This document shows, piece after piece, positions 3,053-41,436 of a stretch of 64,000 nt of DNA. The first letter of the stretch is position 1. The number at the start of each line of letters is the position of its first letter. The stretch comes from Tepidamorphus gemmatus (GTDB taxonomy: Bacteria; Pseudomonadota; Alphaproteobacteria; Rhizobiales; Tepidamorphaceae): positions 434,001-498,000 of the forward strand of contig NZ_SMAK01000001.1 of NCBI RefSeq assembly GCF_004346195.1, in the 5' to 3' direction. A program made the position numbers and the translations under genes. The notes under the pieces are model-generated. The model made no database searches, was not told the origin of the DNA, and saw only the letters and a program-made list of their open reading frames with translations.

Positions 3053-3762
3053 GCAGCCCTCCGCTCGCCGCGCGCCGCCCAGCGCTCCACCCAGACGATG
3101 CCGATGCTCGAGACGATCGAGAACATCAGGTAGATCATGCAGGCGACGAGATAGAAGAAGAACGGCTGCTTGGTCGCGCCCACCGCGACGTTGGTCATGC
3201 GCAGCAGGTCGTTGAGCGCGATGATGGACACCAGCGAGGTGTCCTTGAGCAGTACCAGCCAGAGGTTGGCGATGCCTGGCAGGGCATAGCGCCACAGCTG
3301 CGGAAAGGTCACCAGCCGCAACGTCTGGAATGGCGTCAGCCCGAGCGCACGGGCGGCCTCGATCTGGCCCTTCGAGATCGCCCTCAGCGCGGCAAGGAAC
3401 ACCTCGCTCGAGAAGGCGGCGAAGACCACGCCGAGCGCGATCATGCCGGCAACGAAGCCGTTGATCTCGACATAGGTCTCGGCGAACACGTTGACGAGCT
3501 TCTGCAGCGCGATCTGGCCGCCATAGTAGATGATGAACAGCGTTAGAAGCTCGGGAAGGCCGCGGAACACGGTGGCGAACGCGTCGCCGAAGATCCTGAG
3601 CGGGGCGTGGCTTGAATCGCGCGCCAGCGCGATCAGGAACCCCAGGAAGAGGCCGAGAGGCAGGGTTGCGACCGCAAGCCGGATGGTCAGCCAGGCGCCC
3701 GCCGCGATCTCGTCGCCCCAGCCGTCAGGCCCGAACTCCAGCAGTGCGAACAGGTCCGCCAT
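3049..3762 (-). CDS. Polar amino acid ABC transporter permease (HisQ/ArtQ type)
   Basis: Partner permease (237 aa) of the downstream HisM-like subunit; the pair would form the heterodimeric membrane channel. About five transmembrane stretches are visible, with FRGLPELLTLF after the second and the EAA loop EAARALGLTPFQTLRL followed by TFPQ. It follows the binding-protein gene by 233 bp that hold a stable palindrome, a spacing often seen where the binding protein is made in excess. A G-rich ribosome site (GAGGGGGA) lies almost against the ATG. It overlaps the next permease by 4 bp. Confidence 0.9.
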   Translation of the reverse strand: MADLFALLEFGPDGWGDEIAAGAWLTIRLAVATLPLGLFLGFLIALARDSSHAPLRIFGDAFATVFRGLPELLTLFIIYYGGQIALQKLVNVFAETYVEINGFVAGMIALGVVFAAFSSEVFLAALRAISKGQIEAARALGLTPFQTLRLVTFPQLWRYALPGIANLWLVLLKDTSLVSIIALNDLLRMTNVAVGATKQPFFFYLVACMIYLMFSIVSSIGIVWVERWAARGERRAA

Positions 3763-3878
3763 TCCCCCTCATCCGGACCGGCGCCGTGGGGGCGCCGCCA
3801 CAACCCAGTCACGCCGGCCGGGGCATGCGCCACAGGCTTGGATCAGGGCGCCTTGCCGTTGACCGCCGTACCGTCCCG

Positions 3879-3909
3879 ATCCCGGATCGGCCCGAAGGCC
3901 GTCCGGGAT
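3879..3909. repeat. Near-perfect palindrome between binding protein and permease genes
   Basis: ATCCCGGATCGGCC at 3879-3892 pairs with GGCCGTCCGGGAT at 3897-3909 with a single bulged base and a CGAA loop. The form (ATCCCGG...CCGGGATGAC) resembles the dispersed palindromic repeats common in Hyphomicrobiales intergenic regions. In transcripts it would form a hairpin 3' of the binding-protein message, likely protecting that segment or damping read-through into the permeases. There is no T-tract, so it is not a classical terminator. Confidence 0.6.
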
Positions 3910-3995
3910 GACCGAGAGGCGGTGCGACGGGCGTCGGCGCGAACTGACGCCGCCGGGCACCGGGCTGCACCCGGTCCGGTATCGGCCCGCTCCGA

Positions 3996-4772
3996 TCAGT
4001 ATATCGAGAAGGGGAAGTACTTCTTGTTGATCTTCTCGTAGGTGCCGTCGGCGAGGATTTCCGCCAGCGCCTTGTTGAACATCTCCTTCAATTCGGGATC
4101 GTCCTTGCGCACGGCGATGCCGGCACCGATGCCGAAATACGCCTCGTCGGTGAGCTTCTCGCCGACGAATTGGCAGCACTTGCCCTCTTCGGTCGACTCC
4201 AGCCAATCATACAGAACGAACGAGTCGGCGAGCACCGCATCGAGACGACCGTTGGCGAGATCGAGGTTTGCTTCGTCCTGGGTGGCATAGAGCTTGATGT
4301 CGGAGTCCGGATACTCGCCCTCGAGATAGTTCGCGTGGATCGTCGCCGACTGGGCGCCGAGCGTCTTGCCCTTCAACGCTTGCGGCGAGATGTCGGTGAT
4401 GCCGCTGTCCTTGCGGGCGACGAAATTCGCCGCCGAGCCGTAATACTTGTCGGTAAAGTCAACCACCTTCAGGCGTTCTTCGGTGATCGACATGGAGGCG
4501 ATGATGGCGTCATACTTGTTTGCCAGCAGCGCCGGAATGATGCCGTCCCAATCCTGCGCGATCAGCTCGCACTCGACCTGCATCTTTTCGCAAAGGGCCT
4601 TGGCAATATCGACGTCGAAGCCCTGAAGCTGGTTGTTGGAATCGAAGAAATTGAAGGGCGGATAGGCGCCCTCGGTGCCAATGCGGACCTTGGTCCATTC
4701 CTTGGCGGACGCCGTTCCGGCCGCCAGCGCGACGACGGCGGCGACGACGGCGAGACGCACGAATTGACGCAT
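3996..4772 (-). CDS. Periplasmic polar amino acid-binding protein
   Basis: Substrate-binding component (258 aa) of the amino acid ABC importer encoded downstream; SBP_bac_3 family. A Sec signal peptide with hydrophobic core VVAAVVALAA ends at TASA about residue 23. Family signatures include IGTEGAYPPFNF, GFDVDIAKALC, QDWDGIIPALL, YDAIIASMSIT and DFTDKYY. Two adjacent Cys (KCCQ) near residue 197, together with the earlier Cys pair, recall the lysine/arginine/ornithine branch. The start is the ATG behind GAGGG at 6-nt spacing; longer in-frame starts precede an unlikely leader. It is first gene of the operon and divergent from the Tat-exported hydrolase gene. Confidence 0.92.
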   Translation of the reverse strand: MRQFVRLAVVAAVVALAAGTASAKEWTKVRIGTEGAYPPFNFFDSNNQLQGFDVDIAKALCEKMQVECELIAQDWDGIIPALLANKYDAIIASMSITEERLKVVDFTDKYYGSAANFVARKDSGITDISPQALKGKTLGAQSATIHANYLEGEYPDSDIKLYATQDEANLDLANGRLDAVLADSFVLYDWLESTEEGKCCQFVGEKLTDEAYFGIGAGIAVRKDDPELKEMFNKALAEILADGTYEKINKKYFPFSIY

Positions 4773-9841: not shown

Positions 9842-10363
9842 CCAGACCTCCGTGGCATCCTGCGGATTCGACCGGTGCGGAGTGTGGTGGCCGGTCAGGG
9901 CGGTTTCAAGGCGCGCCGGACGTGGTGGCCTGGTGCGGTCGGCGATCGATGCAAGAGGTGGGTATCGGCCGGGCAATACTGGTATCGATTGCCCGGTGAT
10001 GACAAGCTGCCGTTACGTAAACCATCTGTATTCGCTCGCCGCCTGATCTGTCGCCAGGGTTGTGATGACACCCGCTGACAGATTCCGATCTGCCCATGAA
10101 TTCCGGAGGCGAGATGCTGGGCATTGGCGATATTGATGCCTGATGACCTCAATATTTGAAGTATTGTCCATCCGATCATCAGCATCCCGACCCGTTAAAC
10201 TACGACTCGTCCAGATTGTCGTGATCTGATAATTCTTGCTGTGCCATCAGTCTGCGGGTGGGCCCGGCAGGACTCGTCGGGCATGGCGCCGCTTTGCGCG
10301 GCGTGTCGGGAGGGTTGTCGGGAGGGTGAGGCAGTCGCGCCCTCTCGCATTTTGGAGGAAGGC
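9842..10363. other. 522-bp gene-free, AT-richer region upstream of the protease pair
   Basis: No convincing gene. The central part (about 9990-10240) is visibly richer in A+T than its surroundings and holds nested inverted repeats around 10130-10166. It probably contains the promoters of the transglycosylase (left) and of the first serine protease (right). A divergent regulatory region is the simplest reading; remnants of a lost gene or mobile DNA cannot be excluded. Confidence 0.5.
10130..10166. promoter_or_regulatory. Nested inverted repeats, possible operator
   Basis: ATATTGA at 10130-10136 is repeated in inverse as TCAATAT at 10149-10155 (12-bp spacer). The right arm overlaps a second pair, CAATA at 10150-10154 with TATTG at 10162-10166. 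Two interlocking AT dyads in otherwise GC-rich DNA suggest a protein-binding site about 200 bp upstream of the protease gene. Which regulator binds is unknown. Confidence 0.35.
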
Positions 10364-11308
10364 ATGCGTTCTGAAGCATTGGGACTTCTGGTCGGGGCGA
10401 CACTCGCAATCGTAGCGACCAGCGGGCCGGTTTCGGCCCAGCAACTTGACCGCTCCGTGTCGGACGACGGACTTGGCCTGCAGGCTTCAGCGGCCGGAGG
10501 CGTCTCCGGCACCATGGTCACGGCCTTCGCGGGTACCGGCATCGCGCTGCCGGACGCGGATGTCGCGGCGGAGTCGGCGGCGGAGGTATGGGCGCTTTGG
10601 GCGCTTGAGCCGAAGACGGCGCCGCTCGGGCGGGAATCGATCATCGGCGCCGACAATCGCGTCCTCATCAGAAATACGAGACAGTTCCCATATCGGGCGA
10701 TGGTGCTGATAACGTTCGAGAGTTCGCGCTGCACCGGATGGATGATCGGCGCCGACACGGTGGCGACGGCCGGTCACTGCGTGCATTCCGGCGGCTCGTC
10801 GGGGCGCTGGTACCAGCGCAGCACCTACCGAATCTATCCCGGCCGCAACGGCAATGCGAGCCCGTACGGCTCCTGCACGGCCAAGCGGCTCTATTCGGTC
10901 AACGGCTGGACGAGGAACGGGGCCGACGATTTCGACTATGGTGCCATCAAGCTCAACTGCACGGTCGGCAACACCGTCGGCTGGCTGGGCTTCTTCTGGC
11001 AGACGGCAACGCTCACCGGTCTGCCGACCATCATCTCCGGCTATCCGGGCGACAAGCCGCTGACCCAGTGGCGCAGCACCGACAAGGTGCGGGTGACGCA
11101 GCAGCGGCGGGTATTCTATAGGAACGATACGGTCGGCGGGATGAGCGGCTCGGCCGTCTATTACAATCGCTCCGGCTGCGGCAACTGCGCGATGGCGATC
11201 CACGCCTACGGCGTCTACGGCAGCCCGCCGTTCAGCAACAACAATCACGGCACCCGCATCACCAAGGCGGTGTACGACAATCTGGTGACGTGGCGCAACG
11301 CTCCCTGA
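10364..11308 (+). CDS. Secreted V8/trypsin-like serine protease, copy 1
   Basis: A 314-aa exported serine endopeptidase of the S1B (glutamyl endopeptidase-like) group. The signal peptide ends near VSA (residue 25). A propeptide-like region follows, including EVWALWAL at 74-81, then SIIGADNRVLIRNT, the segment that precedes the mature domain in this family. The triad reads His138 (TAGHCVHS), Asp191 (DDFDYGAI) and Ser261 (GGMSGSAVY). Several Cys (R-C-TGW, HC, GSC, LNC, CGNC) suggest disulfides. TTGGAGGAAGGC before the ATG is a strong ribosome site. A paralogue follows 187 bp downstream. Cleavage specificity is not shown by sequence. Confidence 0.88.
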   Translation: MRSEALGLLVGATLAIVATSGPVSAQQLDRSVSDDGLGLQASAAGGVSGTMVTAFAGTGIALPDADVAAESAAEVWALWALEPKTAPLGRESIIGADNRVLIRNTRQFPYRAMVLITFESSRCTGWMIGADTVATAGHCVHSGGSSGRWYQRSTYRIYPGRNGNASPYGSCTAKRLYSVNGWTRNGADDFDYGAIKLNCTVGNTVGWLGFFWQTATLTGLPTIISGYPGDKPLTQWRSTDKVRVTQQRRVFYRNDTVGGMSGSAVYYNRSGCGNCAMAIHAYGVYGSPPFSNNNHGTRITKAVYDNLVTWRNAP

Positions 11309-24635: not shown

Positions 24636-25396
24636 CGCTCGGTCCGGCCCCGGAATCGGCGCTGGTAGCCGGCGTCGTAGAGCGCACTGTCGCGGAAATC
24701 GTCTGTCGCGAGCACGCTGCCGACGAGAATCAGCGCGGTGCGTTCGATCGGCGCGGCGGCGACCGCTGCGACGATCGTCGCCAGCGTCCCGGCGACGATC
24801 CGCTCGTCGGGCCAGCTGGCGCGGTACACGATCGCCACCGGGCAGTCCGGCCCGTAATGGGGCAGAAGCTCGGCGACCACCCGGTCGAGCGCATGGATCG
24901 ACAGATGGATCGCCAGCGTCGCGCCGGTGCGGGCGAAGGCATCGAGCCTCTCGCCCGGCGGCATCGCCGACGCACGGCCGGAGGTGCGGGTCAGCACCAC
25001 CGACTGGCCGACCTCGGGCAGCGTCAGCTCGCGGCCGAGCGCGGCGGCGGCTGCGGCGAAGGCGGGCACCCCGGGCGTGACCGTGTAGGGAATGCCGAGC
25101 GCCTCCAGCCGGCGTACCTGTTCGCCGAGCGCGCTCCACACCGAGAGGTCGCCGGAATGCAGCCGTGCGACGTCCTGACCTGCCGAATGGGCGCGCTCGA
25201 ACTCGGCGACGATCTCATCGAGGCTCATCGGTGCGGTATCAACGATCCGGGCGCCCGGCGGGCAATGGCCAAGGATCGCGGGGTTCACCAGCGAGCCGGC
25301 GTACAGGCAGACCGGGCAGCGGGCGATCAGATCGCGCCCGCGCAGGGTGATCAGATCGGGCGCGCCGGGACCCGCGCCGATGAAGTGCACCGTCAT
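24632..25396 (-). CDS. cobM: Precorrin-4 C11-methyltransferase (CobM)
   Basis: SAM-dependent methyltransferase (254 aa) that converts precorrin-4 to precorrin-5. The N-terminus [20 protein letters not shown] is the usual CobM start; [50 protein letters not shown] and the [12 protein letters not shown] block specific to C11 methylases follow. Overlaps cobE and cobA by 4 bp each. The next enzyme of the aerobic path, CobF, is not encoded nearby. Confidence 0.95.
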
Positions 25397-25776
25397 CGCG
25401 GCCTCCGTTCTGCGAGCGCGCAGGTGGCCGCGGCGCTCTTGATGCGCGCCAGTACCAGCCGGCCCCCGGGTCCGGCGGCGGCAAGCGCGGCCGCTTCCGC
25501 AATCGAGGCTTGGCCTGTGGCGGCGAGGGCCGATGCCGAGCGGGTCGGACAGTCCGCCTGCACCGCCGTGAGCCGGTCGTCGCCGACATGGAACAGCGGC
25601 AGCGCGAGAATGTCGGCAGCCGCGCGGAGGCCAGGCTCGTCGCGCTTGAAGGAAGGGGCGGCGAGTGCCGTCAGCCGGCAGTGGGCCGCGCCGGCCTCTT
25701 CCATGGCGCGGCGCACCAGCGCGACGATCTCGTCGGCGGTACATCCCCGGCGGCATCCGATACCGGCCACGATCAT
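25393..25776 (-). CDS. cobE: Cobalamin biosynthesis protein CobE (CbiG C-terminal-like)
   Basis: A 127-aa protein of the CobE/CbiG_C family, needed for B12 synthesis in P. denitrificans but of uncertain biochemical role in the aerobic route (the homologous CbiG domain acts in ring contraction of the anaerobic one). The start [18 protein letters not shown] is typical, followed by [13 protein letters not shown] and FHVGDDRL. The ATG overlaps the cobL stop by 4 bp; an in-frame ATG six codons upstream is possible. It sits between cobL and cobM. Confidence 0.88.
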
Positions 25777-26999
25777 GGCTTGCGCGCCGCCCATTGCGTC
25801 ACCGTCATCGCCGGCCGGAAGCCCTGGCGCCCGCCGATTCGCTCGAGTCGCTCCACTGACAGTCGGGTGAGCGTCCCGCCGCATCTGCCGTGCGCCTCGA
25901 TCAGCCGTGCCTCGGTCTCCAGCGTCACGGAATTGACCACGATGCGTCCGCCGCGTCGCAGCGCCCGCCAGGCCGCCTCGATCACGCCGTCCGCCTGTCC
26001 GCCGCCGCCGATGAATACGGCATCCGGTTCCGGCAGTCCGGCAAAGGCGCCGGGCGCTTCGCCGGTGACCACCTCGAGCCGTGGCACGCCGAGACTCGCT
26101 GCATTGCGGGCAGCACGGGCAGCGCGATCCGCATCGCGCTCGATGGCGATGGCCCGGTTGGCCGGATGCCGGACAAGCCATTCAATCGACACCGAGCCGG
26201 ACCCCGCACCCACGTCCCACAGGCATTGGCCGGCCATCGGCATCAGCGCGGACAGCGTCACGGCCCGGATCTCCCGTTTGGTCAGCTGCCCGTCCGACTC
26301 GAAGAAGTCGTCGGGAAGGCCGCCCGACAGCGGCATGACGCGCGCGTCGGGACCGGCAACGACCTCGAGCGCCACGAGGTTGAGCGGGTCGATGTCGGCG
26401 AGGTCGAAGCCGGCCGCCGTCGTCCCACGCAGCCGCTCGCGCGGGCCGGCGAGCGCCTCCATCACGTGGACCAGCGAGCCGCCGAAACCGTATCGGGCAA
26501 GGAGCCGGGCGACTGCCGCCGGTGTGGAGGCATCGGCCGAGAGCACGAGCAGCCGACGGTCCGGCTGCAGGTGCGGCAGGATCGCCTCGACGGGCCGGCC
26601 GCAGCATGACAGGGTGGCGACCTCCTCCAGCGGCCAGCCGAGCCGCGCGGCGGCGAGAGAGAATGCCGAGGGAGCCGGGATGGCGATGGTCTCGTCGGCG
26701 GCAACATGCCGCGCCAGCGCACCGCCGATGCCGAAGCAATAGGGATCGCCGGAGGCGAGGATCGTCACCGGGGTGCCGCGCAGCCCGGCGATTGCGGCAA
26801 AGGCGTCGGAGATCGGGCTCGGCCAGGCCCGAGCCTCGCCGCTGATCAGCGATCCGGCGAGCTTCAGGTGGCGGGCTCCGCCATAGACGATCCGGGCATT
26901 TGCCACCAATGCGCGGGCGGCGGGGCCGAGGGCCTCGACACCATCCTCTCCGATCCCCACGATGGCGAGCCAGCGGCCGGGAGAGGTCCCGCCGCTCAC
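25773..26999 (-). CDS. cobL: Precorrin-6Y C5,15-methyltransferase (decarboxylating) CobL
   Basis: Bifunctional enzyme (408 aa): the N-terminal CbiE-like half (about 1-205; [29 protein letters not shown]) methylates C5, and the C-terminal CbiT-like half (about 215-408; [13 protein letters not shown], the SAM site) methylates C15 and decarboxylates the acetate at C12, giving precorrin-8. The fusion is normal for the aerobic pathway. Its ATG is only 14 bp from the divergent cobK ATG, leaving no room for a promoter between them. It is followed by cobE with a 4-bp overlap. Confidence 0.95.
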
Positions 27000-27013: not shown

Positions 27014-27796
27014 ATGACGATGCATCGGCTGAAGGTCCTCATTCTGGGCGGTACCAGCGAGGCGAGCGCGCTGGCGCGCCGTCTCGCCGGAGATGTCCGC
27101 TTCGAGACAGTGCTGTCGCTCGCCGGCGTGACGAAGGCGCCGGCCGCCCAGCCCGTCCCGGTGCGCCGCGGCGGTTTCGGCGGCGCCGGGGGCTTGGCCG
27201 ATCACCTGCGTCAGGCAGGCTTCGGGGCGCTGGTCGATGCGACCCATCCGTTCGCGGACCGGATAAGCGCCAACGCGGCCGAGGCCGCCCGCATCGCCGG
27301 CGTGCCGCTCCTGGCCGTCCGGCGCCCGGCCTGGCAGCCGCAGGCCGGCGACCGATGGTGCGAGGTCGCCGACATGACGGCGGCGGCCGCCGCCCTCGGC
27401 ATCGCCCCGAAGCGGGTGCTGCTGACGGTCGGGCGGCAGGATCTGGCCGCGTTCCTGACCGCTCCGCAGCACCGCTATGTGGTGCGCAGTGTCGATCCTC
27501 CCGCCGCGGAGCTCCTGCCCCCCGATGCCGAGGTGATCACCGCGCGCGGGCCGTTCGACGAGGCCGGCGAGCGCGCGCTGATGACGGCACACGGCATCGA
27601 GGTGCTGGTCACGAAGAACTCCGGGGGCGCGGCGACCCGTGCCAAGCTCGGCGCCGCGCGGGCGCTCGGCATCCCGGTGGTGATCGTCGCGCGGCCGCCG
27701 GAACCTCCGGTCGAGACCGTCATCGGCGCAGACGAGGCGTATGCCTGGCTCGAACGACGTCATGGCGAGTCCTGCGGGGCGCTGCGCGGCGTATAG
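27014..27796 (+). CDS. cobK: Precorrin-6A reductase (CobK)
   Basis: NADPH-dependent reductase (260 aa) converting precorrin-6A to precorrin-6B. The nucleotide-binding start LKVLILGGTSEASALARRL is at about residues 6-24; GFGALVDATHPFADRISANA, VRRPAWQP, LLTVGRQDLAAF and VLVTKNSGGAATRAKL are CobK signatures. It is the only gene of the cob island's left part on the plus strand: its start is 14 bp from cobL's and its end overlaps the 3' end of cobJ by 37 bp. A separate promoter would have to lie within the cobL coding region, and read-through from cobJ to cobL would be antisense to it. Confidence 0.93.
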   Translation: MTMHRLKVLILGGTSEASALARRLAGDVRFETVLSLAGVTKAPAAQPVPVRRGGFGGAGGLADHLRQAGFGALVDATHPFADRISANAAEAARIAGVPLLAVRRPAWQPQAGDRWCEVADMTAAAAALGIAPKRVLLTVGRQDLAAFLTAPQHRYVVRSVDPPAAELLPPDAEVITARGPFDEAGERALMTAHGIEVLVTKNSGGAATRAKLGAARALGIPVVIVARPPEPPVETVIGADEAYAWLERRHGESCGALRGV

Positions 27797-28524
27797 ACCC
27801 AGGGTTGCCCGGACGGGCGTGCAACGAGCCGGGTCGCCGACGAGCCGATCAGCACCAGTGTGCGCATGTCGGCGCGTGCGGGATCGGCGGCCCGCAGATC
27901 GGCGATCTCGATCGTCTCGTCGGGTCGACTGACGGCAGTGGCGAAGATCACCGGCGTGGCCGGCGGGCGGTGCGCGCGGGCGAGGTCGAGGGCTGCACCG
28001 AGCTGCCACGGGCGCGCCTTCGAGACCGGATTGTAGAGGGCGATCACGAAGTCGGCGGCAAGCGCCGCCTCGAGCCGGCGGACGACCGTCTCCCAGGGTT
28101 TGAGGTTGTCGGATAGCGAGATCACGCAGAAATCGTGGCCGAGCGGCGCGCCGAGCCGGGCAGCGGCGGCAAGCATCGCGGAGATGCCCGGAACAACGAT
28201 CACATCGACATCGCGCCAGACCGGATCGCCGGTCTCGATCGCCTCGAATACGGCGGCAGCCATGGCGAAGACACCCGGATCGCCCGAGGAGACAATCGCC
28301 ACCTCGCGGCCGGCTGCTGCAAGTTCGAGGGCATGGCGGGCGCGGGCGATCTCCTCGCGGTTGTCCGAGGCATGGCGCTGCTGGCGGGGACGCAGCGGAA
28401 CGCGGGCGAGATAGGTGGTATAACCGAGGACGTCGCTCGCCCGCGCGAGTTCGGCGTTGGCCTGCGGAGTCAGCATCTCGCCCGCACCCGGCCCGAGCCC
28501 GACGATGGCAAGCCGGCCGGTCAC
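27760..28524 (-). CDS. cobJ: Precorrin-3B C17-methyltransferase (CobJ)
   Basis: Ring-contraction enzyme (254 aa): methylates C17 of precorrin-3B with SAM to give precorrin-4. The N-terminal GRLAIVGLGPGAGEMLTPQA, DVLGYTTYL, AIVSSGDPGVFAMA, VVPGISAMLAAAARLGAPLGHDF and DNLKPWETV blocks are complete. The start is GTG in a GTGTGA overlap with the cobI stop, behind GGAGGA. The last 37 bp overlap the end of cobK on the other strand. In the aerobic pathway it acts after CobG, whose product it consumes. Confidence 0.95.
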   Translation of the reverse strand: MTGRLAIVGLGPGAGEMLTPQANAELARASDVLGYTTYLARVPLRPRQQRHASDNREEIARARHALELAAAGREVAIVSSGDPGVFAMAAAVFEAIETGDPVWRDVDVIVVPGISAMLAAAARLGAPLGHDFCVISLSDNLKPWETVVRRLEAALAADFVIALYNPVSKARPWQLGAALDLARAHRPPATPVIFATAVSRPDETIEIADLRAADPARADMRTLVLIGSSATRLVARPSGQPWVYTPRSAPQDSP

Positions 28525-29240
28525 ACCGTCCTCCGTCGCGTCGGCACCAGGACGAGCGAAAAATAGGCGCCGGAATCGCCGGCTTCGGCGAGCGGCAGGA
28601 TGCGTTCCTCGGCCATCGTGCCGCGTTCGACGAAGACGGCTTCGTCGAGCCGCCCGGCGGCGGCGAGCGCGGCGCGGATCTTCGGCAGGTGGCGACCGGC
28701 CTTCATCACCACGGCGGCGTCGGCGAGGGCCAGCCGTTCGGCGAGACGGGCAGCCTCCAACGTCCCCGGGACGACCGCCAGCACGTCGTCGCCGCGGGTC
28801 ATCGGCCGACCCAGGCGGCTCCAGCAGCCGGACATCGCCGTGATCCCGGGCACCACCTCGGTCCGGTAACGCCCCGCCAACCGGTCGTGCAGATACATGT
28901 AGGAGCCGTAGAACAGCGGATCGCCCTCGCACAGCACGGCGACATCTGCGCCGGCATCGAGACGGGCGGCGACTTGCCCCGCAGCCTCGTCGTAGAAGGC
29001 CGCCATGCGCGGATGATAGTCCGGATCGGAGACCTTCACCTCGACCGTGAACGGGTATTCGAGCCGCAGCTGTTCCGCATTCCCGAGGAGGCCATCGACG
29101 ATGGTGCGGGCATTGCCGGCCTGGCCGCGCTTGGCGAAATAGGCGATCGCGCCGGCCATGCGCAGGATGCGGGCCGCCTTCAAGGTCAGCAGCTCCGGAT
29201 CGCCGGGACCGACGCCGACGCCATAGAGGGTTCCGGTCAT
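28521..29240 (-). CDS. cobI: Precorrin-2 C20-methyltransferase (CobI)
   Basis: SAM-dependent methyltransferase (239 aa) converting precorrin-2 to precorrin-3A. It starts MTGTLYGVGVGPGDPELLTL, the standard family opening, followed by AIAYFAKRG, LCEGDPLFYGSYMYLHDRL (SAM site) and VVPGITAMSGC. The ATG overlaps the cobH stop by 4 bp, and its own stop overlaps the GTG of cobJ. It precedes the CobG step biochemically. Confidence 0.95.
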   Translation of the reverse strand: MTGTLYGVGVGPGDPELLTLKAARILRMAGAIAYFAKRGQAGNARTIVDGLLGNAEQLRLEYPFTVEVKVSDPDYHPRMAAFYDEAAGQVAARLDAGADVAVLCEGDPLFYGSYMYLHDRLAGRYRTEVVPGITAMSGCWSRLGRPMTRGDDVLAVVPGTLEAARLAERLALADAAVVMKAGRHLPKIRAALAAAGRLDEAVFVERGTMAEERILPLAEAGDSGAYFSLVLVPTRRRTV

Positions 29241-29869
29241 TCGGCCTCGCTGGCAAGCGCGTTGACGGCGGCGACCGCCATGGCGCTGCCGCCGCGCCGC
29301 CCGTGCAGGGTGAGGAATGGCAGGCGGCCGTCCCCGGCGAGCGCCTGCTTGGACTCGGCCGCGCCGACGAAACCGACCGGCAGGCCGATCACGGCGGCGG
29401 GCAACGGCGCGCCGGCGTCGATCATCTCGAGCAGATGGAACAGCGCGGTCGGGGCGTTGCCGATGGCGACAACCGCCCCCGCCATCCGGTCGCCCCACAG
29501 ATGCATGGCCGCGGCGGTGCGGGTGTTGCCGATCCGTGCGGCGATGCCGGGGACGGCCGGATCGGACAGCGTGCAGACCACCTCGTTGCCAGCGGGCAGG
29601 CGGGCGAGCGTGATGCCGTTGGCGACCATCTTCGAGTCGCACAGGATGGGCTTGCCGGCGAGCAGGGCGGCGCGGGCCTTCGTCGCGAAGTCCGGCGAGA
29701 ACACCAGATCGCGGCCGATCTCGACCATGCCGCAGGCATGGATGATCCGCACCGCGATCCGGGCCTCGTCCGGCGCGAGGTGGTCGAGGTCCGCCTCCGC
29801 CCGGATTGTGGCGAAGGAACGCCGGTATATCTCCGCCCCGTCGCGGATGTAGTCGTAGCGGCCGGTCAT
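29237..29869 (-). CDS. cobH: Precorrin-8X methylmutase (CobH)
   Basis: Isomerase (210 aa) that moves a methyl group from C11 to C12, giving hydrogenobyrinic acid. The catalytic His lies in RIIHACGMVEIGRDL at about residue 43; ILCDSKMVANGIT, GNTRTAAAMHLW, AIGNAPTALFHLLEMID and GLPVGFVGAAESK are family signatures. Coupled by 4-bp overlaps to cobG upstream and cobI downstream. Confidence 0.95.
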   Translation of the reverse strand: MTGRYDYIRDGAEIYRRSFATIRAEADLDHLAPDEARIAVRIIHACGMVEIGRDLVFSPDFATKARAALLAGKPILCDSKMVANGITLARLPAGNEVVCTLSDPAVPGIAARIGNTRTAAAMHLWGDRMAGAVVAIGNAPTALFHLLEMIDAGAPLPAAVIGLPVGFVGAAESKQALAGDGRLPFLTLHGRRGGSAMAVAAVNALASEAE

Positions 29870-31065
29870 CGGCTGGCAGTCTCCGAACGCGATGAGACGG
29901 GCCAGGGGCCCTTCTCGAAGGGATATCCGGGCAGAGCGCGGCGCGGATCGGCGCCATCGACGATCAACCCGAGGCGGATCGCCGTCTCCGCCACGGCGCC
30001 GGCATCGCGCACGGAAATGCCAGGCAGCGCCAGCGCACGCCAGGGGGTCGTGCGCAGCGTCGCATCGCCGAAGCGGTCGGCAAGGTCGGCGAGCACGCGC
30101 AGGGCGGCCGCCTCGAGCCGCCCACGCGGCACACCGACGACGAAGACGCCGGTCTCGCCGCAGCGCAGGTAGCCGACGGGGCTGTTCGTCTCCGGCGCGG
30201 CGTACATGGGCTTGGGAGATGCCGCCGCGACGACGGAGCCAGATGCCCGGAACCCGTCCGGATGCGACGTCGAGGAGGCTGCAGCCCTTGCAGACGAGGC
30301 CGCGGTCGAGGTCGTTATCGCGTCGCCACCTGTGCCGCCGCTTGCCGCCTCATTCTCGCCAGGCCCGGACTTGAGCCGGAAATCTTCGGCGACTCCGGCG
30401 GCGGCGAGGACCGCATCCTCGCCGACCGCGGCCACCAGGTCGCGCATCCTGAAGGGCGCCACCTCCGCAGGGCCGGCGAGGGCGAGGAAGGCACGGGCCA
30501 GACGGCGGGCAAGCGCGGGGGCATCCGCGGCTGCGGCCGTGAGCCGGACCGAGCCGCCGTCGAGCGTCAGGTCAAGTTCGTCGCCGAGCGCGCGGAGCAT
30601 GATGTCGGTCGTTGCGTCCGGTATCGGCAGCGCGACACCGCAATCGACGAGGAAGCCGAACTTCGGCGGCAGCGCCCGCAGGCGCGGATCTTCTGCGAGA
30701 AGCGCCTCGATCCCGCGCGCGATGGCGTGGGAATCGACGGCAGCGCCCGGATCGTCGGGGCCGAGCGGATCGCACGTCACATTGCGGACGGTCTCGACGG
30801 CGTCGTCCGCGGCAGCAAGGCCGTGGGCGCGGGTCATCGCTGCGAAGTCCGCCACGGATGCGGTGCGCAGCCCGCGAAACTGCAGGTTCGACCGACTGGT
30901 CAGGTCGATCAGTCCGTTGCCGCAGTCTGCCGCGGCATCGGCCAGCGCTCTCGCGGCATCGGCGGGAAGGGTCGCGGCTGGCGGCTTGACGCGCACCAGC
31001 AGCCCGTCGCGGGCGGCCATCGGCGTCGCGATGCTCGGGCACCAGCCGTAGCGTTGCGCGGTCAC
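29866..31065 (-). CDS. cobG: CobG-like precorrin-3B synthase, apparently lacking the C-terminal Fe-S module
   Basis: Nitrite/sulfite-reductase-like protein (399 aa). In other organisms CobG uses O2, a non-haem iron and a [4Fe-4S] cluster to hydroxylate precorrin-3A. The N-terminal ferredoxin-like region is present (YGWCPSIATPMAARDGLLVR; CGNGLIDLTSRSNLQFRGL), as is a second one near 300-370 (LRCGETGVFVVGVPRG). Between them, at about 231-288, is a Ser/Ala/Thr-rich linker. The chain ends about 20 residues after IVDGADPRRAL, where family members continue into Cys-x5-Cys and Cys-x3-Cys cluster ligands; neither pattern occurs here, and no frameshifted continuation is visible. Start is GTG behind GGAGGG, overlapping the cobN stop by 4 bp. 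Confidence 0.8.
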   Translation of the reverse strand: MTAQRYGWCPSIATPMAARDGLLVRVKPPAATLPADAARALADAAADCGNGLIDLTSRSNLQFRGLRTASVADFAAMTRAHGLAAADDAVETVRNVTCDPLGPDDPGAAVDSHAIARGIEALLAEDPRLRALPPKFGFLVDCGVALPIPDATTDIMLRALGDELDLTLDGGSVRLTAAAADAPALARRLARAFLALAGPAEVAPFRMRDLVAAVGEDAVLAAAGVAEDFRLKSGPGENEAASGGTGGDAITTSTAASSARAAASSTSHPDGFRASGSVVAAASPKPMYAAPETNSPVGYLRCGETGVFVVGVPRGRLEAAALRVLADLADRFGDATLRTTPWRALALPGISVRDAGAVAETAIRLGLIVDGADPRRALPGYPFEKGPWPVSSRSETASR

Positions 31066-34000
31066 GATGCCCTCCGGTCGAGGATTGCGGCCACCGTGTT
31101 GCGGCGGGGACGCCACAGGCCGCGGCGGATCGCCTCGTCGAAGCGATCGGCCATCGCCGACCGTGCGGCCGGATTGGCATCGCTGAGGAAGCGATCGACG
31201 GTCTCATCGCCGAGCGTGGCGTCGAAGAGCAGATCGAACTGCCGGTCGAGCCGCTCGGGCAGGGTGGCGGCGAAGCCGTAGAGTCCCTCGAGACCGCGCG
31301 CGATCTCGGCGGCGCCGCGATAGCCGTGGCGCATCATGCCGGCGATCCAGGCCGGATTGGCCGCTCTTCCCCGCACGACACGCCGCACCTCCTCGGCAAC
31401 GGTTCGCGTTCTCGGCGCCTCGGGCCTCGAGGTATCGGCATGATACAGTGCCGGGGCATTGCCGAGGCTGCCGGCGGCCGCCGCGAAGCCCCCCTCGTGG
31501 GCGGCGAAATCGACCGTGTCGAGCAGGTCGATCTCGGCGTGATCCTGCTGATGCACGAAGGCATCGGCAACGCGGACGCGCTCGGCGAAGCCCTCGTCGT
31601 CACGGGTACCGTCGAGGCCCTGGCCGTAGGCATGGGCAGAGGCGGCGAGATAGGCGCGGCCGAGATCGTCGCGGCTGTCCCAGGCGCCGGCCTCGACGAG
31701 ATGGGTGACGCCGGCGCCGTAGCCACCGGGCGCGGCGCCGAAGATGCGCGTCGTGGCCCTCCTGAAGGCCGCGCCGGACGTTCCGCGCGCCGAGGCGGCG
31801 AGCGGGTTCCACTCCGCCTCGTCGGACCGTTCCGCGATCGCCCGCACCACCGCGTCGAACAGGGCGATCTGCGTCTCGAAGGCATCGCGGAACAGGCCGG
31901 AGATGCGCAGCGTCACATCGACGCGGGGCCGGTCGAGCAGGGCGAGCGGCAGGATCTCGAAACCGGAAACGCGGTTCGAGCCTTCGTCCCAGATCGGCCG
32001 GGCGCCCATCAGCACCAGCGCCAGTGCCAGATCCTCGCCGCCGGTGCGCATCGTGGCCGAGCCCCACAGGTCGATGACCAGGCTGCGCGGCCAGTCGCCG
32101 TGATCCTGCATGTGGCGACGCACCAGATCTTCCGCCGCCTTCTCCGCCAGCATCATCGCCGAGCGGGTCGGCACCGCGCGCGGATCGACGGTGTATAGGT
32201 TGCGTCCGGTGGGCAACACATCGGCGCGGCCGCGCGTCGGCGCACCGGCCGGACCGGGTGCGACGAAGCGGCCATCGAGCGCGGCCAGCAACGCCGCGCG
32301 CTCCGCATCGGCGGATGCGTCGAGACGGCCTGCCAGCTCAGCGTGCGCAATGCCGGGCGACGCGGCCGTCAGCGCCTGATGCAGGGCGGCGCGGCAGTGT
32401 CTGTCCGGCGCACGGCCGAACACGTGCAGTCCGTCGCGGATCTGCAGATCCTTCACGTCGCACAGATAGGCATCGAGCCGGGCGAGGCGGTCGTCATCAC
32501 TCGTCGCTGCCGAGGCGCCACTTTCGGCAAGAAGCCCGGCATCCTCGGCGCGGTCGAGGATCGTTCGCCGGAGGATCTGCGTGCGGCGGCGGTCGAGGCC
32601 GTCGGCGGCGGCGTATTCGTCGATCAGCCGCTCCAGCTCGGCGGCTGCGCCATGGCTGCCGGCAGCCTTCAGCGGTGGCGTGAGATGGCCGATGGTCACC
32701 GCGCCGAGGCGGCGCTTGGCGGCGGCGGCTTCGCCGGGATTGTTGACGATGAAGGGATAAATGACCGGCAGCCCGCCGATCAGCGCCGCCGTCGCGCAGG
32801 ATTTCGACAACGCCACCGCCTTGCCCGGCAGCCATTCGAGCGTGCCATGGGTGCCGAGATGGATCATCGCGTCGATACCGGCGACCTCGCGCAGCCAGAG
32901 ATAGAAGGCGACAAACACATGGCGCGGCGGCAGGTCGGGGTCGTGGTAGTCGGCCTTGCGGTCGAGGGCGTTGCCGCGATCGGGCTGGATGGCGAGGATG
33001 ATGTTGCCGCACCGGACGACGCGGTGGGCGAACACCCGGCCGGCTCCCAGCTTGCCCGCCACTGCCGCCTCATCTCGGGCAGCCGCAGGCTGATCCGGGA
33101 TCTGGGTGGCTGCACCGGTCAGCACATCCCCGATCCCGGTTCTCGACTCACGCTCCGGCCAGGATGACGCCTCACGGACGGGAGCAGGAACGACGGCGGG
33201 GTCCTCCCGAGGTTCGCCCCACGCTGCGAGAATCTGCGTCCGTGTCGCCTCCGGCAGCGTATCGAACAGGCGGCGATAGGCGTCGAGCGACAGGAACGGT
33301 GCCGGCTCGGCATCGCAGAGGGCGGCGACGATCTCGCGGCCGGTCGGCGCAACGGGGCCGGTGTCGTAGCCCTCCTTGCCCAGCAGGCGCACGATCTCGG
33401 CGGCGCTCTCGATGGCGTCGAGGCCGACGGCATGGGCCGCCTGACCGGCCGCGCCGGGATAGTCGGAGAGGATCAGCGCCAGCCGGCGGTCGCGGCGCGG
33501 CGTCGCGGCGAGCCGCGCCCAGCCCGCCGCGCGGGCGGCGGCAAGGGCGATGCCAGCCGGATCGGGACGGTGCACCGTACGGGCGTATTCCAGGCCGGGC
33601 ACTTCGATCTCGTCGGCCTTGAAGGAGACCGCGGTGGCAAGCAGCCGGCCGTCGAGTTCCGGCAACACCACCTGCATGGCGAGATCGGCCTGGCCGAGAC
33701 CGCGCGGCGAAGCCTCCCAGGCCTCGCGTGACGAGGTGGCGAGCACGACCTGCAGGACTGGCGCACCGGCGGCTTCGAGCGGCGAGGGCCCGTCGTCGAG
33801 GCGGGCGGAGAAGCCGGTGGCGTTGAGGACGACCGCCGGCCGCAAGTCGCGCAGCGTGTCGGCTACCCAGCGTGCCGTTTCAGGACCCTTCAGGCTCGTG
33901 ACATGGAGCGCGCGCACGTCGAGCCCGCGCCGGTCCAGCTCGGCCGCGAGCGCGTCGACCGGCGCCAGATCGCCGGCAAGCAGCCAGGCACGGTAGAAGA

Positions 34001-34598
34001 CGATCACGGCAAGCGGGCGGGTAGCGTCCTTGCCGGCACGCGGCGACAGGGTTCGGGGTACGTACTCCCCATGCAGGGCGACCGGTTGTGCCCGGACGCC
34101 ATCGTCGTCACCGAGACCGGCAAGATGGCTGAGCAGCCGCAGGGCCGCGCGCATGTTGGCCGGGCCACCCTCCGCCAGCAGCGTGTCGAGGCGGCTGCGG
34201 ATGGCCGGATCGACGGTCGAAAGGTCCCGGAGCCGTGCATCCTCGCGGCCGTCGCCGGGCATGAACACCACCGGGATGCCCCTGTCCCGGCAGGTCCGGG
34301 CGATCTCCTCGCAGCCATAGCGCCAGTAATCGAGGCCGCCGAGCAGCCGCACCGCCACGCAGCGCGCGGCGGCGACGACCTGCTCGACATAGAGATCGAC
34401 CGACATCGGATGCCGCAGCCGGCCGATGTTGGCCAGTCTGAGCTGCGGCAGATCGCCGGCCGCCTGCCAGGCCGTGGCGGCGCTGCCGAGATCGGAATCA
34501 GAGAAGGACAGGAACACCAGCGGCGCAGGCGACTGGCCGAGATCGACCGCCGTCTCGACATCGTCGAGCGATCGTGTCTCCCGGACCAGGATGTGCAT
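31062..34598 (-). CDS. cobN: Cobaltochelatase large subunit CobN
   Basis: ATP-dependent cobaltochelatase catalytic subunit (1178 aa, slightly short of the usual size) that inserts Co(II) into hydrogenobyrinic acid a,c-diamide. Homologous to Mg chelatase BchH/ChlH. Recognisable blocks include the MHILVRET start, ADYHDPDLPPRHVFVAFYLWL, IHLGTHGTLEWLPGKAVALS, YPFIVNNPGEAAAAKRRLGA, LPTGRNLYTVDPRAVPT and DLWGSATMRTGGEDLALALVLMG. A poorly conserved, low-complexity stretch sits at about 463-515, where the DNA contains an inverted repeat. The CobS/CobT partner ATPase subunits are not in the window. Starts 2 bp after cobW. Confidence 0.95.
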   Translation of the reverse strand: MHILVRETRSLDDVETAVDLGQSPAPLVFLSFSDSDLGSAATAWQAAGDLPQLRLANIGRLRHPMSVDLYVEQVVAAARCVAVRLLGGLDYWRYGCEEIARTCRDRGIPVVFMPGDGREDARLRDLSTVDPAIRSRLDTLLAEGGPANMRAALRLLSHLAGLGDDDGVRAQPVALHGEYVPRTLSPRAGKDATRPLAVIVFYRAWLLAGDLAPVDALAAELDRRGLDVRALHVTSLKGPETARWVADTLRDLRPAVVLNATGFSARLDDGPSPLEAAGAPVLQVVLATSSREAWEASPRGLGQADLAMQVVLPELDGRLLATAVSFKADEIEVPGLEYARTVHRPDPAGIALAAARAAGWARLAATPRRDRRLALILSDYPGAAGQAAHAVGLDAIESAAEIVRLLGKEGYDTGPVAPTGREIVAALCDAEPAPFLSLDAYRRLFDTLPEATRTQILAAWGEPREDPAVVPAPVREASSWPERESRTGIGDVLTGAATQIPDQPAAARDEAAVAGKLGAGRVFAHRVVRCGNIILAIQPDRGNALDRKADYHDPDLPPRHVFVAFYLWLREVAGIDAMIHLGTHGTLEWLPGKAVALSKSCATAALIGGLPVIYPFIVNNPGEAAAAKRRLGAVTIGHLTPPLKAAGSHGAAAELERLIDEYAAADGLDRRRTQILRRTILDRAEDAGLLAESGASAATSDDDRLARLDAYLCDVKDLQIRDGLHVFGRAPDRHCRAALHQALTAASPGIAHAELAGRLDASADAERAALLAALDGRFVAPGPAGAPTRGRADVLPTGRNLYTVDPRAVPTRSAMMLAEKAAEDLVRRHMQDHGDWPRSLVIDLWGSATMRTGGEDLALALVLMGARPIWDEGSNRVSGFEILPLALLDRPRVDVTLRISGLFRDAFETQIALFDAVVRAIAERSDEAEWNPLAASARGTSGAAFRRATTRIFGAAPGGYGAGVTHLVEAGAWDSRDDLGRAYLAASAHAYGQGLDGTRDDEGFAERVRVADAFVHQQDHAEIDLLDTVDFAAHEGGFAAAAGSLGNAPALYHADTSRPEAPRTRTVAEEVRRVVRGRAANPAWIAGMMRHGYRGAAEIARGLEGLYGFAATLPERLDRQFDLLFDATLGDETVDRFLSDANPAARSAMADRFDEAIRRGLWRPRRNTVAAILDRRAS

Positions 34599-34600
34599 GC

Positions 34601-35650
34601 CTACCCCCGGATTGCCGCCTCGATGGCCGCCCTGTCGAAGCCGGTCTCTGCGATCACCACCAGGCGCCCGGTGCGCGCCTCGCCGGGCGCCCAGGGCCGG
34701 TCGAAGGTGTGATGGAACCGGTTGCCGACACCCTGTACCGCGAGCCGCAACGGCTTGCCGGCGACCGCGACGAAACCCTTGATGCGCAGGATATCGTGGG
34801 TCTCGGCGGCCGTCTTCAGACGGGCCACCAGCCGCTCCGGCTGGTCGATCTCGCCGATCTCGACGACGAACGTGTCGAAGTCGTCGTGCTCGTGGCCATC
34901 CTCGCCATCGTGATGCGACGGGCGGGCGTCGAGATCATCCTCGGCGGCCGCGCCGATCCCCAGCAGTACGGCCGGATCGATGCGGCCCTCACGGGTCGCC
35001 ACGACCTTCACGGCGCGCGGCAGGGATTCGGCGATGGCGCGGCGCAGCATGTCGAGCTCACCCTCGTGCAGCAGGTCGGCCTTGTTGAGCAGCACGAGGT
35101 CAGCTGCCATCAGCTGGTCCTCGAAGACTTCGGCCAGCGGATTGTCATGATCGAGCGATGGGTCTTCGGCGCGCTGGCGAGCGACCTTCTCGGGATCGTC
35201 GGCGAAGCGTCCGGCCGCGACCGCCGGGCCATCGACGACGGTTATGACACCGTCGACCGTCATGCGCGAGCGGATGGTTGGCCAGTCGAATGCCTTGATG
35301 AGCGGCTTCGGCAGGGCGAGACCCGAGGTCTCGATCAGCACATGCTCGGGTGGCTGCGGCCGGTCGAGCAGTGCCTGCATCGTGGGCAGGAACTCGTCGG
35401 CCACCGTGCAGCAGATGCAACCATTCGCGAGTTCGACGATGTCCTCCTCAGAGCAGTCGGCGATCCCGCAGCTCCTCAGCAGCTCTCCGTCGATGCCGAG
35501 CGAGCCGAACTCGTTGACGATGATCGCGATGCGGCGGCCGTTCGCGTTCTGGAGCACGTGTCGCACCAGGGTCGTCTTGCCGGCGCCGAGAAAGCCGGTG
35601 ATGACGGTTGCGGGAATCTTGCCGGCGGCCGGACGGGCGGTTGCGGTCAT
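34601..35650 (-). CDS. cobW: COG0523 GTPase / metallochaperone CobW
   Basis: G3E-family GTPase (349 aa) believed to deliver cobalt to the CobN chelatase. Walker A GFLGAGKTT at about residues 19-27, the metal-site CXCC motif NGCICCT at about 76-82, LIETSGLALPKPL and the GTP-specificity motif LNKADL. A His/Asp-rich linker (HHDGEDGHEHDD, about 259-270), often seen in metal-handling members, joins the CobW_C domain. It lies immediately before cobN and overlaps the DUF1636 gene by 4 bp, under control of the upstream B12 riboswitch; the context fits cobalt delivery rather than zinc. Confidence 0.93.
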   Translation of the reverse strand: MTATARPAAGKIPATVITGFLGAGKTTLVRHVLQNANGRRIAIIVNEFGSLGIDGELLRSCGIADCSEEDIVELANGCICCTVADEFLPTMQALLDRPQPPEHVLIETSGLALPKPLIKAFDWPTIRSRMTVDGVITVVDGPAVAAGRFADDPEKVARQRAEDPSLDHDNPLAEVFEDQLMAADLVLLNKADLLHEGELDMLRRAIAESLPRAVKVVATREGRIDPAVLLGIGAAAEDDLDARPSHHDGEDGHEHDDFDTFVVEIGEIDQPERLVARLKTAAETHDILRIKGFVAVAGKPLRLAVQGVGNRFHHTFDRPWAPGEARTGRLVVIAETGFDRAAIEAAIRG

Positions 35651-36063
35651 TCGGCGGCGTCCTTCAGCGGTGGTTGCGGAGCGGCGAGATGCAGCGGAAA
35701 GCGCCCGATGATCGCATGCCGCAGCGACTCGGGACGGCCGGAGCGCAGGACGGCTCCTGTCTCCGATCGCGCATAGGCGATGGCGTAGTCGATCAGGTCG
35801 TCGGCGTGTTCCGGGCCGAGATCGCCAACCATGTAGGCCCACTTGCCGGGCTGGGAGATCGCCGCCGAACAGCCGCGCTCGCAGTTGGCGAAGCAGACGA
35901 CCGGGACGATCGCCGGGGCATCGGCGCCGAGCGCCCGCGCCGCGGCACCGGTCGCCTCGAACAGCAGCTGGCCGGCACGCGGCACATCTTCGGCCGACGG
36001 CGGATCGCCCGCCCGCCGGCAGGTTGTGCAGACATAGAGCGTCGGGCGCGAGTCGCCGGCCAC
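35647..36063 (-). CDS. DUF1636 Cys-rich, ferredoxin-like protein
   Basis: A 138-aa cytoplasmic protein of DUF1636. Cys pattern: C-x2-C near the N-terminus (LYVCTTCRRAG, residues 12 and 15) and VVCFANCERGCS at about 56-66, reminiscent of thioredoxin-like [2Fe-2S] ferredoxins or a metal-binding site. Family members accompany cobW/cobN or cobalt transport genes; the function is unproven. It is the first gene behind the minus-strand cobalamin riboswitch and overlaps cobW by 4 bp. Its leader contains a small hairpin 20-35 bp before the ATG. Confidence 0.8.
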   Translation of the reverse strand: MAGDSRPTLYVCTTCRRAGDPPSAEDVPRAGQLLFEATGAAARALGADAPAIVPVVCFANCERGCSAAISQPGKWAYMVGDLGPEHADDLIDYAIAYARSETGAVLRSGRPESLRHAIIGRFPLHLAAPQPPLKDAAE

Positions 36064-36098: not shown

Positions 36099-36207
36099 TG
36101 TCGGGGTGCGTGGTCCCGCCCGCGTGCGACATCGCCGGGACGGTCGCCGACGGGATCGCCGGTTTCCGCAGCGCCGGCGCACCCCGCCCGGCTTGCGGTC
36201 AGTCCGT

Positions 36208-36378
36208 TGCGACGGCAGGTCTCCTGGCTCGCGGTTCAGATCGCCTTCCGTCACCTTCCCGGGCGCGGACCCAGTGGCATCCGACGGGTGGCTCACCGCC
36301 TACAGTTGCGGGGGCAGCCGCGGCATGGGGCCTGGTCCGACATGTCCGGCCCGGCACCGCGTTCCCTTTTCACCTTCG
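36208..36378 (-). promoter_or_regulatory. Cobalamin riboswitch for the DUF1636-cobW-cobN-cobGHIJ operon
   Basis: Read on the minus strand, the leader shows the conserved cobalamin riboswitch landmarks in order: GGGAACGCGGTGC (about 36354-36366), CCGCGGCTGCCCCCGCAACTG (about 36300-36320), GCCACYGGG-like GCCACTGGGTCC, CGGGAAGG, and the B12 box GCGAGCCAGGAGACCTGCC (about 36214-36232). It precedes DUF1636 by about 145 nt. High adenosylcobalamin would shut down the downstream operon, by the usual mechanism in this group of occluding the ribosome site or terminating transcription. How far the control extends past cobJ is unclear, because of the cobK inversion. Confidence 0.93.
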
Positions 36379-36410
36379 TCCCGCTTGCGCCGGGGCGAAG
36401 GACCGTCACG

Positions 36411-36444
36411 GATTGACTATTGGTTCGTCCGGGGCGAGTCAATC
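36411..36444. promoter_or_regulatory. Symmetric divergent promoter region between the riboswitch operon and cobP
   Basis: GATTGACT at 36411-36418 is repeated in inverse as AGTCAATC at 36437-36444 with 18 bp between. Each strand therefore presents a TTGACT -35-like hexamer directed outward: rightward toward cobP (ATG 36484) and leftward toward the riboswitch leader. Two back-to-back promoters or a dimeric regulator site would both explain it. Confidence 0.45.
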
Positions 36445-40231: not shown

Positions 40232-40344
40232 TGCCGGATCGATATCACGTCGCCCACCGGCGAGGCAGTGGCGGATCGGACGGCCGCCGCCATGTCGCAA
40301 TCGCACTCGACGGGTCCGGGACCATCCGGTAGTCTCGCCTCCGG

Positions 40345-40512
40345 ATCGGTCCCGAAAGGGCGAAGAGGGAACGCGGTGCCGGATCTCGTTCCGAAAGCCG
40401 CGGCTGTCCCCGCAACTGTAGGCGCCGAGCCGCCCCTCCAGCGAACCCACTGGCGCAAGCCGGGAAGGGGGAGGGCGGCGGTAGGCAGGCGCGAGCCAGG
40501 AGACCTGCCGGT
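40345..40512 (+). promoter_or_regulatory. Cobalamin riboswitch for cbtB-cbtA
   Basis: The plus strand shows the same ordered landmarks as the riboswitch at 36.2-36.4 kb: GGGAACGCGGTGCCGG (about 40368-40383), CCGCGGCTGTCCCCGCAACTG (about 40398-40418), CCCACTGG, GCCGGGAAGG and the B12 box GCGAGCCAGGAGACCTGCC (about 40491-40509). About 50 nt separate it from the cbtB ATG; within them CTCCA/TGGAG and GCCGC/GCGGC can form competing small stems near the ribosome site, consistent with translational control. It should reduce cobalt uptake when B12 is plentiful. Confidence 0.93.
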
Positions 40513-40562
40513 CCATGGGGCAACTCCAAGGCCGCCGGTGGAGCGGCAGATCGGATGACGAG

Positions 40563-40749: not shown

Positions 40750-41436
40750 ATGCTGAAGCGGATTCTGGCCGCGGGCCTCGTGGGAGGCATCGCCGGCGGA
40801 CTGATCGTGGCCGCGATCCAGTCGGTCACGACGGTTCCGATGATCCTCCATGCCGAGGAATTCGAGGAGGTCGCCACCACGGGCCTGACAATCCTCGCGC
40901 ACGCGCACGGCGACCACGCGCTTGGCGAGCACGGCGACGGGATGCGGACCATCCTCACCTATGTCGCCACCATCGCTGTCGCGGTGGGCTATGCCTGGAT
41001 GCTGCTGGCAGTGATGTACGCCAGGGGCGCCCGGATCGACGTCAGCTCGGTGATCCCGTTCGCCATCGCAGGCTTCTTCGCCACCGGCCTCGCCCCCGCG
41101 CTCGGGCTCGCGCCGGAGCTGCCGGGGGTTGCGGCGGCCGATCTTTACGCGCGGCAGCTCTGGTGGGCGTTCACGGCCTTCGCCACAGCCATCGGGATCG
41201 GCGCGATCTATTTCGGCCGCAGCGCTCCCTGGGTGATAGGCGGGCTCGTGCTGATCGTGCTGCCGCATGTGGTCGGCGCGCCGCAGGCCGACGGCATGAC
41301 GAGCGCCGTGCCGGCCGAACTCGCCGCACATTTCGCCGCGACGTCGCTCGTCATCCACGCGCTGATGTGGATCGTTCCTGCGGCGATCGCCGGTTACGCG
41401 ATGTCGCGGATGAGCCTGGCCGACCGGACGGTCTGA
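40750..41436 (+). CDS. cbtA: Predicted cobalt transporter CbtA
   Basis: A 228-aa inner-membrane protein with about five helices, partner of CbtB. It begins LKRILAAGLVGGIAGGLIVAAIQ, has a His-rich periplasmic-type segment AHAHGDHALGEHGDG (about 64-78), and later LPHVVGAPQ and HAAH-like AAHFAATSLVIHAL segments. Cobalt specificity is a genomic-context prediction for the family and is supported here by the B12 riboswitch and the neighbouring cobaltochelatase operon. Followed by a 10-bp perfect hairpin. Confidence 0.9.
   Translation: MLKRILAAGLVGGIAGGLIVAAIQSVTTVPMILHAEEFEEVATTGLTILAHAHGDHALGEHGDGMRTILTYVATIAVAVGYAWMLLAVMYARGARIDVSSVIPFAIAGFFATGLAPALGLAPELPGVAAADLYARQLWWAFTAFATAIGIGAIYFGRSAPWVIGGLVLIVLPHVVGAPQADGMTSAVPAELAAHFAATSLVIHALMWIVPAAIAGYAMSRMSLADRTV

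Follow-up and report, generated by a model that had tools for sequence, protein, structure and literature searches.

CobG, the enzyme that makes precorrin-3B in the aerobic B12 pathway, is reported to contain an Fe-S center together with a mononuclear iron, and to our knowledge the division of work between the two is not settled. The Fe-S center was reportedly described by Schroeder et al. in 2009. We know of no description of CobG as a siroheme enzyme. CobZ of Rhodobacter capsulatus performs the same reaction as CobG (PMC7242693). Judged by titles and abstracts, literature searches, one of them dominated by unrelated papers, gave no paper about a cluster-less CobG, and a search on DUF1636 gave none in which this name occurs. 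In the window, which is the whole stretch of 64,000 nucleotides from Tepidamorphus gemmatus analyzed here, the short CobG is a form of this known enzyme that lacks the cluster module.

The short CobG and its operon

The cobG gene of the window lies on the minus strand in an operon with the order DUF1636-cobW-cobN-cobG-cobH-cobI-cobJ, followed by further cob genes and positioned below a cobalamin riboswitch. The features are as follows.

36197..36422, minus strand: cobalamin riboswitch upstream of DUF1636-cobW-cobN-cobG-cobH (RF00174, 112.4 bits, gathering cut-off 31.5)
35647..36063, minus strand: first operon gene, for a DUF1636 protein that has C-x2-C and C-x3-C motifs and is a speculative electron donor (PF07845, 89.4 bits)
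34601..35650, minus strand: cobW (PF02492, PF07683)
31062..34598, minus strand: cobN, cobaltochelatase large subunit (TIGR02257, 1225 bits, cut-off 822)
29866-31065, minus strand: cobG, 399 aa, GTG start, ending before the [4Fe-4S] module (open reading frame, Pfam, TIGR02435, motif scan)
29237..29869, minus strand: cobH, precorrin-8X methylmutase (PRK08285, 338 bits, cut-off 276)
28521..29240, minus strand: cobI, precorrin-2 C20-methyltransferase, which makes the CobG substrate (TIGR01467, 243.6 bits, cut-off 163.25)
27760..28524, minus strand: cobJ, precorrin-3B C17-methyltransferase, which uses the CobG product (TIGR01466, 290.9 bits, cut-off 246.35)

The cobG frame overlaps both cobN (end 31062) and cobH (start 29869) by 4 bp. 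A second cobalamin riboswitch (40330-40526) is found elsewhere in the window, upstream of cbtA (40750-41436).

The window protein matches the CobG profile TIGR02435 over positions 2-326 of 388 with 185.4 bits, which is below the curated cut-off of 234.8 bits. PF03460 (NIR_SIR_ferr) matches in 2 stretches (90.5 bits), representing both ferredoxin-like half domains, and Pfam NIR_SIR covers only the beginning of its domain at a sub-threshold score (16.4 bits, cut-off 27). Along the protein the following parts were distinguished.

30835..31011, minus strand: first ferredoxin-like half domain, NIR_SIR_ferr, residues 19-77 (Pfam; model pLDDT mostly about 90 or more)
30637..30795, minus strand: residues 91-143, similar to the beginning of the first NIR_SIR domain and including the conserved LPPKFGF (Pfam, sub-threshold; conserved positions)
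30202..30366, minus strand: disordered linker, residues 234-288, varying in length among the four short CobGs (pLDDT <50; alignment)
29971..30177, minus strand: second ferredoxin-like half domain, residues ~297-365 (NIR_SIR_ferr stretches; strands and helices 298-364 in the model; alignments)
29869..29931, minus strand: short disordered tail, residues 379-399, in place of the C-x5-C...C-x3-C module of relatives (alignments, model, motif scan)

A first-pass annotation of this DNA had claimed that CobG stops before its expected Fe-S module and that the alternative frames of the cobG/cobH junction do not encode the cluster cysteines. Both observations are confirmed: besides the early end of the profile match, a motif scan of the whole window protein found neither C-x5-C nor C-x3-C, and neither motif was seen in the three sense frames across the junction. 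The protein has five cysteines (positions 9, 48, 98, 142, and 302), and Cys-9 and Cys-142 alone are common to all four short CobGs described below, which are too few for a four-Cys site. Both motifs are present in 21 of 21 other CobG frames covering the region. These frames come from L003-L028, which are 26 of the 30 loci that the search gave; the weakly scoring L029-L032 were regarded as paralogues and left out, and L019 was not counted because its frame runs off the contig. The 24 full-length CobGs of the comparison set likewise all carry C-x5-C followed by C-x3-C. The assignment of the missing cysteines as cluster ligands is supported by the ACTGNQFC and GCPNSC columns of an alignment between the CobG profile and solved nitrite reductases; in the reductases these cysteines bind the cluster. 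The lost C-terminal [4Fe-4S] module comprises ~60-70 residues.

Distribution and single origin of the short CobG

Searching 61 genomes with the window protein identified three more family members (G004, G006, and G007) with a CobG ending at the same place. Together with the window genome (G000), the short-CobG genomes thus number four, all of one family, with completeness of 99.96% (G000), 98% (G004), 86% (G006), and 85% (G007). The CobGs of the three relatives score 193.4, 185.0, and 187.4 bits against TIGR02435, all below the cut-off, and across the short CobGs the match ends at position 325-328 of 388. The relatives' proteins are 49-54% identical to that of the window, and the frames are open in all four genomes. 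The order cobN-cobG-cobH-cobI-cobJ is the same in the four short-CobG genomes and also surrounds the full-length CobG of Rhodobium orientis (L061) and of a MAG labeled Rhizobium sp. Q54; the cobalamin riboswitch above the operon is present in the window, G004, and G006. The four short CobGs form one clade in a tree of the CobG core (support 0.998) and in a tree of six neighboring proteins (support 1.0), indicating one old loss. The Q54 sequence adjoins this clade with a support of 0.994 in the six-neighbor tree and only 0.204 in the CobG-core tree. Gene order in short and full-length genomes, together with the tree, places the short CobG in the orthologous position and line of descent of CobG. 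The earlier suggestion of a settled state rather than a fresh frameshift is therefore upheld by four genomes of one clade with the same ending in the same operon. The first-pass annotation had also considered related functional CobGs with this ending; three relatives that end in this way do exist, though none is known to function.

Wider surveys were carried out at the level of the order and the class. Among the matches listed for 199 genomes of the order, a sample from which G006 and G007 fell out by completeness, an early-stopping CobG occurs in G000, G004, G079, G132, and G089. The last three were rejected as independent losses. The short match in G079 (L068, G079:C10:366000-379000, cobG at ~6068) loses its frame at the first cluster cysteine, in the manner of a recent frameshift or an error of sequencing; the match in G132 lies at a contig edge; and that in G089 (L070, G089:C1:2746000-2758000) has GC-rich tandem repeats (PHPSPLP...GARG) in the linker. 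A match over positions 7-358 in G180 was likewise set aside, being a reductase-like frame by reading in a genome that also has a 2-388 match. Among 212 genomes surveyed in the class, a match at E <= 1e-47 was present in 25, and the window's is the only one of these to stop before position 380. No other clean case of a short CobG was found among the matches listed in these surveys of 199 order and 212 class genomes. In G025 (L013), CobG and CobH lie in one open frame of >630 aa and may be fused.

Conservation and predicted structure of the core

The 24 full-length CobGs were aligned with the four short ones. Outside the module, 36 positions show at least 90% conservation among the full-length proteins; all four short CobGs are unchanged at 33 of them, the exceptions being window positions 19, 186, and 224. 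None of the 14 near-invariant module positions is kept. The rate of the CobG core relative to six neighbors was 1.92-2.14 for the 6 short pairs compared with 1.42-2.50 for 276 full-length pairs (medians of 2.05 and 1.70, respectively), placing the short pairs in the upper half of the full-length range; twenty listed closer full-length pairs gave 1.55-2.50. Raw CobG dN/dS values were 0.32, 0.45, and 0.47 for three short pairs compared with 0.22-0.35 for four full-length pairs; among the latter, G101-G025 (0.22) has a frame that continues into cobH. When divided by the mean of cobH, cobI, cobJ, and cobM, the values were 1.8-1.9 for the three short pairs and 1.6-2.0 for three full-length pairs, leaving out G101-G025. 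The relative rates and dN/dS values indicate constraint about as in normal CobG, perhaps slightly looser. On the stem branch of the short clade, the length is 0.25 for CobG compared with 0.093 for the neighbors, a ratio of ~2.7, as if the protein had readjusted after the loss. This long stem, the upper-half rates, and the raw dN/dS values would suit some shift of constraint or role. The proposal of the first-pass annotation that this CobG is a relic fits poorly with 33 of 36 positions kept and with the relative rate. The core has been retained largely as it is in normal relatives, which hints that an enzyme with no cluster of its own might carry out the oxygen-using step.

The predicted structure of the window CobG (mean pLDDT 78.5, pTM 0.76, 218 residues at 90 or above) shows both half domains and the part between them with confidence, and the linker (residues 234-288) and tail (residues 382-399) are disordered. 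In the model of the full-length R. orientis CobG the module is in place (mean pLDDT 87.2, pTM 0.87). Among solved structures, NirA and plant nitrite reductases resemble the short core most closely, with NirA (1zj8_A) giving a Z of 28.6 and an rmsd of 3.0 over 321 aligned residues. The profile alignment places CobG Arg-25, Arg-58, Gln-62, and Lys-135 on siroheme-contacting columns of the reductases, and each of the four short CobGs retains these residues.

Candidates for precorrin-3B synthesis

The four genomes need precorrin-3B, since they contain CobJ, CobT, and CobF or CbiD and lack CbiG_N. CobT, for late cobalt insertion, occurs in all four; for precorrin-5 methylation the window genome has CobF (314 and 318 bits) and the other three have CbiD; and CbiG_N, which marks the oxygen-independent route, was absent from all four, although absences in G006 and G007 are weak because of their lower completeness. 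The cobF of the window genome (L097, G000:C2:346001-366000, 9860-10768) lies apart from the cob cluster and adjoins an integrase-like gene and phage-like structural genes, by reading of the sequence; the short-CobG relatives have cbiD inside the cob cluster instead. G003, a genome of the same family with CbiD, has CbiG_N fused ahead of CobJ (L098, G003:C323:1-6492, 2572-4383) and no CobG match better than a reductase-like one, so the family seems to hold two routes.

The first-pass annotation had proposed a CobZ-like replacement enzyme, and a TcuA/CobZ-N-like flavoprotein is indeed present in the window genome (PRK08274, 590 bits, cut-off 369). With 267.5 bits, however, it falls below the cut-off of TIGR02485 (CobZ/TcuA, 372.55), which is passed in none of the four short-CobG genomes and is passed in G005. 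Its gene lies in another neighborhood, next to a further flavoprotein, a TPP-type enzyme (by reading), and transporter-like genes, with no TcuB. TIGR02484, the profile of the TcuB half, matches nothing at E <= 0.001 in G000, G006, and G007 and gives a weak partial match of 33 bits in G004, and profile searches of all four genomes (G006 and G007 being incomplete) found no complete CobZ pair. The best TIGR02485 match in G004 is just 118 bits, and G002, which has a full-length CobG, holds a flavoprotein comparable to that of the window genome (228 bits). With the short CobG core also conserved, we consider it very unlikely that CobZ performs the step and has left the short CobG as a remnant. A [4Fe-4S] module acting in trans, donated by a nitrite/sulfite reductase or by a protein too diverged for the profile, is very unlikely as well. 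The window genome does contain a NirA-type reductase with both motifs, but such reductases occur in 8 of 8 genomes of the family and hence do not track the module loss. At E < 1e-5 the module profile, for which G002 served as a positive control (its full-length CobG matched at 5e-35), found only nitrite/sulfite-reductase-type frames of 643-884 aa in the four genomes, and apart from these no match there was better than E 0.1 (best, G006:C58, E 0.104, positions 10-28). There is similarly little to recommend a broken pathway with a decaying cobG. The lost module is thought necessary and dN/dS is somewhat raised, but the frame has stayed open in four genomes, at 49-54% protein identity to the window CobG, the core is conserved, and neighbors and riboswitches are intact. 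In the near-complete G000 and G004, these searches leave the short CobG as the sole recognized candidate for precorrin-3B synthesis.

The main rival explanation is that a protein escaping recognition took over catalysis and that the short CobG became a precorrin-binding partner subunit, handing substrate to that protein or to CobJ. In its favor, most conserved core positions are kept although the redox cofactor is gone, and the surge of change along the stem branch would be in keeping with a new partner. A clade-specific conserved Y-A...S-P-x-G lies before the second half domain, and Cys-142 is new to the short clade within the comparison set. Against it, the compared cob cluster stretches show no extra gene relative to full-length clusters, and clade-specific invariant cysteines are spread thinly over the cob proteins, with one each in CobG, CobL, CobB, and CobE (CobQ and CobU were compared on few sequences), so no relocated cluster site is evident. 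CobE (25393-25794) was considered as a new cluster carrier, having five invariant cysteines including a C-x3-C in the four short-CobG genomes, and rejected, as some genomes with full-length CobG also have the C-x3-C and just one cysteine is specific to the clade. We judge the partner-subunit explanation unlikely on balance and favor a CobG that runs without the canonical cluster.

The short CobG has lost its module once, within the same operon and under the same riboswitch, with its core conserved and no recognized substitute. In the explanation we prefer, the C-terminal [4Fe-4S] module was removed once, on the stem branch of a small clade of Tepidamorphaceae type, and the core of two half domains would still bind precorrin-3A and yield precorrin-3B with O2, probably using a mononuclear non-heme iron as reported for canonical CobG. 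A separate protein would supply the electrons that canonical CobG would pass via its own cluster. One possible donor is the DUF1636 protein encoded in this operon; genomes with full-length CobG have it equally, with the same cysteine pattern, and it is therefore not singled out. As the most likely reading, at about even chances, the short CobG still makes precorrin-3B with electrons from another protein. More tentatively, and at somewhat less than even chances, this naturally cluster-less CobG may be an active precorrin-3B synthase, which would make the [4Fe-4S] cluster of CobG a dispensable electron relay, outside oxygen activation and ring hydroxylation. The Fe-S center reported for CobG speaks for a role of the cluster and would count against cluster-free activity.

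A lineage without the module and with a kept core amounts to a natural domain-deletion experiment on the roles of the CobG cluster and iron, and a short cluster-free CobG could be of use for constructing aerobic B12 pathways. Genomes of this kind would be scored as having no CobG under HMM cut-offs, since the short form falls below the curated value. Compared with canonical CobG (TIGR02435, e.g. R. orientis), the short form shares operon position, both ferredoxin-like half domains, nearly all conserved core positions, and vertical descent, but differs in ending before the C-x5-C...C-x3-C module and in its sub-cut-off score. It resembles the siroheme nitrite/sulfite reductases NirA, NiR, and SiRHP in the fold of its core, whereas it is much shorter and has none of their [4Fe-4S]/siroheme cysteine ligands. 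CobZ of R. capsulatus would carry out the CobG reaction, but is an unrelated flavin/heme/Fe-S protein with no complete counterpart found in the four short-CobG genomes.
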